A DNA stretch of 64,000 nt, from the NCBI RefSeq assembly GCF_008124885.1, contig NZ_VNHX01000008.1, positions 1 through 64,000 of the forward strand, in the 5' to 3' direction. Positions 55,880 through 58,852 of this stretch are shown here, piece after piece. The stretch comes from Sphingobacterium allocomposti (GTDB taxonomy: Bacteria > Bacteroidota > Bacteroidia > Sphingobacteriales > Sphingobacteriaceae). Numbering within the stretch: position 1 is the first letter of the stretch; each line of letters begins with the position of its first letter. The notes below the pieces were generated by a model. It saw only the letters and a program-made list of their open reading frames with translations, had not been told where the DNA came from and made no database searches. Both the position numbers and the translations under genes were made by a program.

Positions 55880-56644
55880 ATGAGGATTGTTACATATAAT
55901 GTTAACGGATTGCGGGCCGCCCTAAAGAAAGATTGGATAGGATGGGTAAGGTCTGTCGATCCGCATATTATCTGTTTACAGGAGATTAAAGCCACGCCCG
56001 ACCAGATTCCGGAAATCATCTTTCTGGAAGAAATGGGGTATGAACATTACTGGTATCCCGCGCAGAAGAAGGGCTATAGCGGAACAGCTATTTTTACAAA
56101 AATTACGCCGACACATGTTGCTTATGGCTGTGGTCAAGAGGATTACGATTTTGAGGGAAGGATAATCCGTGCTGATTTCGAGGACGTGTCGGTGATGAGT
56201 GTATATTTTCCATCCGGAACTACCGGCGATATCAGGCAGGAATTTAAATACCGGTTCCTCGGCGACTTCCAGGCGTATAGTGACAAGCTACTGCTGGAAA
56301 AGCCGAATCTGGTTATTTCCGGCGACTTTAATATATGTCATAGGGCCATTGATATACATAATCCCAAGTCGAACGCAAACAGTTCGGGCTTCTTGCCGGC
56401 CGAACGGGAGTGGATGGAGAATTTTATCGCCTCGGGATATATAGATTCATTCCGGCACCTTAATCCGGAACCGCATCATTACACGTGGTGGACATACAGA
56501 GCAGGTGCGAGGGCCCGAAATTTAGGTTGGCGGATCGACTATAACATGATTTCGACGCAGTTGAAGGACAGGCTTGTCAACGCCGAAATCTTATCGTCGG
56601 CAGTACATTCCGACCATTGCCCGGTGCTGCTGGAGCTCAGGTAG
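55880..56644 (+). CDS. xth: Exodeoxyribonuclease III
   Basis: A 254-residue AP endonuclease / 3'-5' exonuclease acting in base-excision repair. The conserved blocks are RIVTYNVNGLRAALKKD, CLQEIKATPDQIP (catalytic Glu), GYSGTAIFTK, SGDFNICHRAIDI (catalytic Asp and Asn), and the C-terminal RIDYNMIST and HSDHCPVLLEL. The active site is complete and the length normal. It converges on the histidine kinase gene with 16 bases between the stops. Confidence 0.95.
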   Translation: MRIVTYNVNGLRAALKKDWIGWVRSVDPHIICLQEIKATPDQIPEIIFLEEMGYEHYWYPAQKKGYSGTAIFTKITPTHVAYGCGQEDYDFEGRIIRADFEDVSVMSVYFPSGTTGDIRQEFKYRFLGDFQAYSDKLLLEKPNLVISGDFNICHRAIDIHNPKSNANSSGFLPAEREWMENFIASGYIDSFRHLNPEPHHYTWWTYRAGARARNLGWRIDYNMISTQLKDRLVNAEILSSAVHSDHCPVLLELR

Positions 56645-56660
56645 ACTGCTCGCGGATGCA

Positions 56661-58340
56661 TTATACAGCAGGTGGCGTTCCTGCGGCCGCAGTGGGGATA
56701 TTCCGGCTCATCTTCGATAATATAAGAGAAACAAGCTGCTGTTCGTCGAGCGGCTTCGTTATCACGCCGTCGAAAGCCATTCCGGCGTCCGTGTTGTGAA
56801 CGCTTTCTACATGCATCGTGTCCGAGGTGAATGCGATTATCATCGCTGTTTTAAGGCGATCGTTTTGTCGCGCTTCCTTCAGTACATCCCATCCGTTGAT
56901 GTCCGGCATAAGGACATCCGTAATAACGACATCAATAGAGGTCGACTGCATGAATTTTAAGGCGCTTTCTCCACTGTCAAACGTATATACGTTGGGAAAA
57001 TCCTTAAAATAATGCTTTAAATACAGGATATTTATTCTATTGTCGTCGATAAGGACCAATCGGAGATCTTTGGGCAGATCAGCCAATGTGTATGGTTTCC
57101 GTCTCACCGTGTCCTCACGCATATCCGTAATCGGAATAGTTAACGTAAATGTTGATCCCACCCGGGGCGTACTGACTAGGCTAATGTCGCCATGTAATTG
57201 TTCCGACAACAATTTCGAGATATATAGCCCAAGGCCGAATCCGGTTGATCGGAGTTTATTATCAGCCATGTAGTACTGACGGAAGATATGCTTCTGGTGC
57301 TCGGGCTTTATTCCGATACCCGTGTCTTTGACTTTAACAATTAAGGTGGCGCTTTCCCCACTTCCTTCGATAAACGCGGAAAGCTTTACTGTTCCCCTTT
57401 GTGTATATTTGATGGCGTTGCTTACAAGATTGGAAACGATCTGTTTCAGTCTGAAAGGGCTGCTGTATATTTCCGTCCGCTGGTCGATATTTACTTCCTG
57501 CTCCAGCGCTATTCCCTTTTTCTTTGCCTGATAGACGTACATCCCAACAATATCCTCCAGCAAGCGTTTCGGGCCGAAATACTCATTTTTTACCGCTAGC
57601 GCACCGACTTCCAGCTTGCTTAGGCTCAAGATGTCGTTTACAGAAGTGTTAATAACGGCGATTTCGTGTGCTACGGAATCAAGGTATTCGCGGTTTATGG
57701 TTGGCTTACCTCCATCTTTCTTCAAAATGTCGATGATGCCCATGAGCGAGTTGATGGGAGCGCGTACCTCATGGCTGACGCTCGCCAGCACGCTGGTTTT
57801 TTCTTCAGCAACTCTTGCCGCATATTCTTTTTCGGCCTGCAGCTTCCGCTCGTATTTGGCTGCGTTGTACTGGTAGAACAGAATGAAAACGATCATCAGC
57901 AGCATAATACAAAGCGCTGCGATCAGTTGACGCTCCAACCGTCCGGCATTCTCCTTATGAACGGCTAAATCCTGCTCCTGAGCATTGCGTACGACCGATT
58001 GCTCGCGCTCCTTCAGATTGTCTATCCCGTTTTTTAGGTCGTTCAACAGCCGGTAATTAGCTTGGATAAGCTGGCGTTCTTTCTGGTGGAGAGAGAGAAA
58101 TTTCCCGCGTAGATGGTGTAAATTACGCTGGAAAATTTTTTCATTCTGCGTGACGACGTGCTCAACGTTTCGGTATACCGCGTCCATCTGCTTTACATTC
58201 AGTTGCTCGGCGGTAGAGCGAGAGACGAGCGTATCGTTCTTCGCATTAAATATCCGCTTGAAAAGACCTTGCTTTTTCCGGATGATAGTATCTGCGCGGT
58301 TGTAATTGAGCGAGGTGTCGCTAAGGATTCTGCTTAACAC
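56661..58340 (-). CDS. Hybrid histidine kinase / response regulator, main part (frameshifted from its N-terminus)
   Basis: The open part of a membrane hybrid kinase, 559 residues from a GTG at 58340. It has a periplasmic helical stretch, one membrane helix (LIAALCIMLLMIVFILFYQY, about 135-155), and a HisKA domain with SVSHEVRAPINSLMGIIDIL. The ATPase domain shows NLVSNAIKYTQ and GFGLGLYISKLL. A receiver domain follows with LVLIDDNRINILYL and phospho-acceptor Asp in DVVITDVLMPDINGW. The frame continues open upstream of 58340 and meets the 144-residue frame at 58418-58852, which supplies the missing first membrane helix. The start given is probably not the native one. Confidence 0.85.
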   Translation of the reverse strand: MLSRILSDTSLNYNRADTIIRKKQGLFKRIFNAKNDTLVSRSTAEQLNVKQMDAVYRNVEHVVTQNEKIFQRNLHHLRGKFLSLHQKERQLIQANYRLLNDLKNGIDNLKEREQSVVRNAQEQDLAVHKENAGRLERQLIAALCIMLLMIVFILFYQYNAAKYERKLQAEKEYAARVAEEKTSVLASVSHEVRAPINSLMGIIDILKKDGGKPTINREYLDSVAHEIAVINTSVNDILSLSKLEVGALAVKNEYFGPKRLLEDIVGMYVYQAKKKGIALEQEVNIDQRTEIYSSPFRLKQIVSNLVSNAIKYTQRGTVKLSAFIEGSGESATLIVKVKDTGIGIKPEHQKHIFRQYYMADNKLRSTGFGLGLYISKLLSEQLHGDISLVSTPRVGSTFTLTIPITDMREDTVRRKPYTLADLPKDLRLVLIDDNRINILYLKHYFKDFPNVYTFDSGESALKFMQSTSIDVVITDVLMPDINGWDVLKEARQNDRLKTAMIIAFTSDTMHVESVHNTDAGMAFDGVITKPLDEQQLVSLILSKMSRNIPTAAAGTPPAV

Positions 58341-58417
58341 GGAGTCGGCCCCCAGATAACGGGGGGCGGGGATGGTTGTATTCTTTCTTGTAACGAGAGC
58401 GGGGAGAGAATCCTGCG

Positions 58418-58852
58418 CTATAAAAAGACCAGATCATCAATGTTCTTTTTTAAGTGTGCAAATTCGTCTGCAAGAAGATCTTTCTCCCGAATTGCATCCG
58501 TGCCCTGGAGCAGAGGGTTGTTTTCGATGGGCAGCGCCGACAGAGAATCTATTACATGTTTAATGGTGTCTAACTTACTTTTATATTGCATGTAGGTGGG
58601 CTGGTCGAAGTCGATCGTATAGAGACGGAAAAGGTTATCCGCCTCACCGAATGTGGAGAACAGCCGGTACAGCGTGGCCGATTGATTCTGACTCGATGCA
58701 TAAGCTGCATTCAACTGCCCCTTGACCTTCTGGTAAGTTACGTATTGATAAAAAAAGAGCGCACTCAGATAGCAGAAAAGCGCTATTGCAGCTCCAATCA
58801 AAACCTTTCGTAACAAAAACGTTTTCTTTCCTCTCTTTGACACAGTTAACAA
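58418..58852 (-). CDS. N-terminal part of the same histidine kinase (ends at frameshift)
   Basis: A 144-residue frame with one membrane helix (VLIGAAIALFCYLSALFFYQYV, residues ~17-38) and the start of a helical periplasmic sensor (AYASSQNQSATLYRLF, HVIDSLSALPIENN). It ends DDLVFL then TAG. A -1 shift at the run C-TTT-TTA (complement of 58421-58427) leads without another stop into the kinase frame. Together the two frames give a standard two-helix sensor kinase of about 730 residues. It may be a sequencing error, a mutation or true frameshifting. Confidence 0.75.
   Translation of the reverse strand: MLTVSKRGKKTFLLRKVLIGAAIALFCYLSALFFYQYVTYQKVKGQLNAAYASSQNQSATLYRLFSTFGEADNLFRLYTIDFDQPTYMQYKSKLDTIKHVIDSLSALPIENNPLLQGTDAIREKDLLADEFAHLKKNIDDLVFL

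Follow-up and report, generated by a model that had tools for sequence, protein, structure and literature searches.

Does a hybrid sensor histidine kinase of Sphingobacterium allocomposti depend on ribosomal frameshifting, is it switched by phase variation, or is its gene simply broken? The question is raised by a kinase gene that lies in two frames within a stretch of 64,000 nucleotides (hereafter, the window), part of a 4.39 Mb genome available as a 53-contig draft assembly. A programmed shift, phase variation and plain mutation had all been put forward in the original prediction, and plain mutation is the one of the three that is supported and survives. The locus is laid out as follows:

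58421..58852, minus strand: upstream fragment, a 144-codon open frame that includes the first of the membrane helices and the beginning of the extracytoplasmic sensor region
58418..58427, minus strand: frame break, CTTTTTATAG, with the TAG stop and the repeated TA missing from orthologues (junction compared with 23 orthologues)
56661..58420, minus strand: downstream fragment in the -1 frame, with the rest of the sensor region, the second membrane helix, HisKA, HATPase_c and the receiver domain

Frames and domains of the split kinase

From 58852 to 58418, the minus strand encodes 144 codons and then a stop, the last codons being GAT GAT CTG GTC TTT TTA TAG (...DDLVFL-TAG, with the TAG at 58418). 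The start of this upstream frame is uncertain, either TTG 58852 or GTG 58843, and alignment with orthologues begins at about residue 7. The downstream frame has its stop at 56661 and can be followed back, still open, to about 58433; with a one-base step back at the TTA, the reading continues as ...F L I A Q D S L P A L V. Its earliest ATG, GTG or TTG codon is GTG 58340, 78 bases past the stop of the upstream frame, and only ATA, ATC and CTG precede it. At its other end, the kinase gene lies tail to tail with an exodeoxyribonuclease III-like gene on the opposite strand, with 16 bases between the two ends (window 56644-56661).

The Pfam HisKA, HATPase_c and receiver domains all score above their cut-offs and all lie in the downstream frame, which thus carries in one chain the three domains that define a hybrid histidine kinase. 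The phosphoacceptor histidine, the ATP-binding motifs and the receiver aspartate and lysine can be read in its translation. For the upstream frame, which contributes the first hydrophobic helix, neither Pfam nor NCBIfam gave a match. Sequence, frames and Pfam domains together confirm the hybrid kinase that had been described from the DNA, split after DDLVFL-TAG and open downstream in the -1 frame. NCBIfam returned only general histidine kinase matches, far under their cut-offs, so that no specific sensor can be named, and a literature search on this kinase in Sphingobacterium yielded nothing relevant.

Orthologues and the junction

Congeners were defined as members of the genus Sphingobacterium, judged by their named relatives, and 59 of them were sampled. 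A close orthologue of the downstream part was found in 42 of the 59 (E at most 1e-118), and 40 of these 42, that is 40/59 congeners sampled, encode both parts in one continuous frame (about 700-760 codons). The closest orthologues share approximately 60% protein identity with the window kinase, and a search of 93 congeners found none closer; identity to the closest orthologues is 60-66% for the upstream fragment, compared with their first part, and 57-61% for the downstream fragment. Because orthologues carry both parts in one frame, comparison of sequences confirms that the two frames were one gene, as had been proposed. The C-terminal tail of the window kinase is about 12 residues longer than the end of most orthologues.

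The kinases of S. chuzhouense (L068), S. haloxyli (L069) and S. gobiense (L070) have the same domain order as that of the window, with 59-61% identity over the kinase part, and share with it the junction residues DLVF-x-AQDSL. These three are read in one frame, whereas in the window two additional junction bases give rise to the stop. The same holds more widely: laid out codon by codon, 23/23 intact orthologues are colinear at the junction and have no extra codon, and the window exceeds every one of them by two bases, which are the second TA. The window reads GTC TTT TTA TA GCG CAG GAT TCT where S. chuzhouense (L009) reads GTT TTC ATG GCG CAG GAT TCT. In the orthologues the junction follows the pattern (D/N/Q..)-(L/I)-(V/I)-(F/Y/L..)-(M/F/L/Y)-(A/T/S)-x-D-S, and the difference between them and the window sits in the second TA, not in the length of the T run. 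Colinearity over the break, with a difference (+2) that is not a multiple of three, is what characterizes a frameshift pseudogene.

A two-base insertion directly after codon 144, the second TA, very probably interrupts the kinase gene, with tandem duplication of TA as its simplest putative origin, and the break is probably recent. Translation from the normal start would stop at the TAG and give a product of 144 residues that has one membrane helix but lacks the kinase. The remainder is intact in sequence, but no ATG, GTG or TTG occurs in the first 75 or so bases after the stop, and presumably no functional kinase is made.

The good preservation of both frames would also be expected of two separate, translationally coupled genes. 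This arrangement is the hardest to credit of those considered here, since the downstream frame has no ATG, GTG or TTG close to the stop (the nearest being GTG 58340), the orthologues are fused, and the sensor region would be split in two.

Proposed recoding and slippage at the T run

In the original prediction, C_TTT_TTA was likened to known slippery heptamers, at which a programmed or tolerated -1 ribosomal frameshift would give a 144-residue product and a second one of approximately 730 residues. In favor of such a shift, the -1 frame is open over the break, the remainder is conserved and a T run lies at the break itself. However, C_TTT_TTA departs at its first base from X_XXZ_ZZN, the best-studied -1 motif (as defined in PMC4066793), and leaves the tetramer U_UUA, for which frameshifting in Escherichia coli did not exceed 1.8-3.6 times background even when a strong pseudoknot was present (PMC4066793). 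Long frames of the window contain the same heptamer in frame at eight further sites, and at least three of these belong to genes that align to a relative without interruption. Neither the frame transition nor the motif is present in any of the 23 intact orthologues laid out, which are two bases shorter at the junction. Stimulators of the shift are similarly missing: no Shine-Dalgarno-like sequence was found in the 30 bases upstream of the site, and the fold downstream of it does not stand out (z -0.76, with 41/200 shuffles as stable). In addition, a -1 slip, or one U added in the transcript, restores the frame but adds an isoleucine absent from every orthologue, so that the product would be one residue longer than all of them. 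Like dnaX and IS3-family elements, which use X_XXZ_ZZN (Sharma et al., 2014; PMC4066793), the window combines a T run at the break with a downstream part in the -1 frame; unlike them, its motif is incomplete, not conserved, without a stimulator and not needed by relatives. A shift of this kind is therefore very improbable.

Over the whole window, CTTTTTA was counted 27 times, whereas dinucleotide shuffles predict 15.7, and 0/100 shuffles reached 27. The idea that this excess marks a special motif was rejected, since the heptamer, where in frame, belongs to ordinary genes without interruption; the excess is likely a matter of codon usage.

Two further mechanisms were considered, slipped-strand mispairing as a cause of phase variation and transcriptional slippage on the T run. 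In their favor, the extra TA results in a pair of tandem units, and one added U in the transcript also restores the frame. Slippage-prone runs are typically nine bases long (PMC1088944), however, and five Ts and two TA units are shorter than the run or repeat needed. No tandem array was found at the site beyond these, and the repeat is absent here in orthologues. With no repeat for phase variation to act on, this proposal did not hold up, and both mechanisms are judged very improbable as well.

A milder possibility is that the two additional bases really exist and have become fixed in the species, and that weak slippage at U_UUA or initiation near GTG 58340 yields some working kinase, as in a tolerated or 'saved' indel. 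It is very improbable too, if slightly less so than a dedicated frameshift or a phase-variable switch.

Possible mutation or assembly error, and gene loss in the genus

The locus is thus very probably an ordinary broken gene, in which a recent frameshift mutation or an assembly error interrupts an otherwise single-frame hybrid sensor histidine kinase. The orthologue comparison suggested in the original prediction gave intact orthologues, one half of what it had named as counting against itself. The window departs at 2/110 columns that are invariant in the other 23 sequences, and intact orthologues depart at 0 to 6; judged from these columns, the remainder of the gene appears to be without decay, which fits a recent mutation or an assembly error. 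An intact remainder is, however, also expected of a recoded gene.

Genome surveys have described frameshifted singleton genes, which they ascribe either to mutation by indels or to errors of sequencing (Antonov et al., 2013; PMC3711429). Like those singletons, the window gene has intact relatives and no conserved shift site, and it is broken at this place in one genome only; no difference from them was found.

Whether the extra TA exists in the living strain is a separate matter. A sequencing or assembly error would leave that strain with an intact gene, and it would account for a singleton break with no decay elsewhere in the gene. Approximately 25 other window genes each align in one frame to one of two related genomes (G014 or G034), an estimate of frameshift frequency that covers only the part of the window colinear with either, and the kinase is the only break among them. 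As the compared genes are unbroken, the kinase break is an isolated event, which is also compatible with an error. Similarly, Antonov et al. (PMC3711429) expected their BLAST-validated singletons to be mostly sequencing errors, and such surveys class singletons of this sort largely as errors. Two observations argue in the other direction. The gain is of two bases outside a long homopolymer, which is not typical of short-read or homopolymer error. The same gene is also broken in other congeners, including two single-contig or few-contig genomes (G016 among them). An error is therefore possible but rather unlikely, and a real, recent mutation in a dispensable gene is the favored, though far from certain, cause of the break.

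The breaks in other congeners are independent of this one, lie at other places, include frameshifts and affect at least four genomes. One genome (G035, L112) has breaks in the ATP-binding region and near the N-terminus, another (G051, L113) is broken at two other places, the single-contig genome G016 (L114) is missing about 380 residues, and the fourth (G002, L115) has an in-frame stop in the first, N-terminal part. Several of the 59 sampled congeners have no match to the kinase. With breaks at other positions in four or more congeners and no detected copy in several more, the kinase gene is dispensable in Sphingobacterium.

In annotation, this locus is best recorded as a hybrid histidine kinase with a frameshift, neither as two genes nor as a candidate for programmed frameshifting. 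Past annotation it matters little, the mild interest being that Sphingobacterium has seen several cases of breakage or loss of this sensor kinase. The N-terminal stop is possibly common to G035 and G002.
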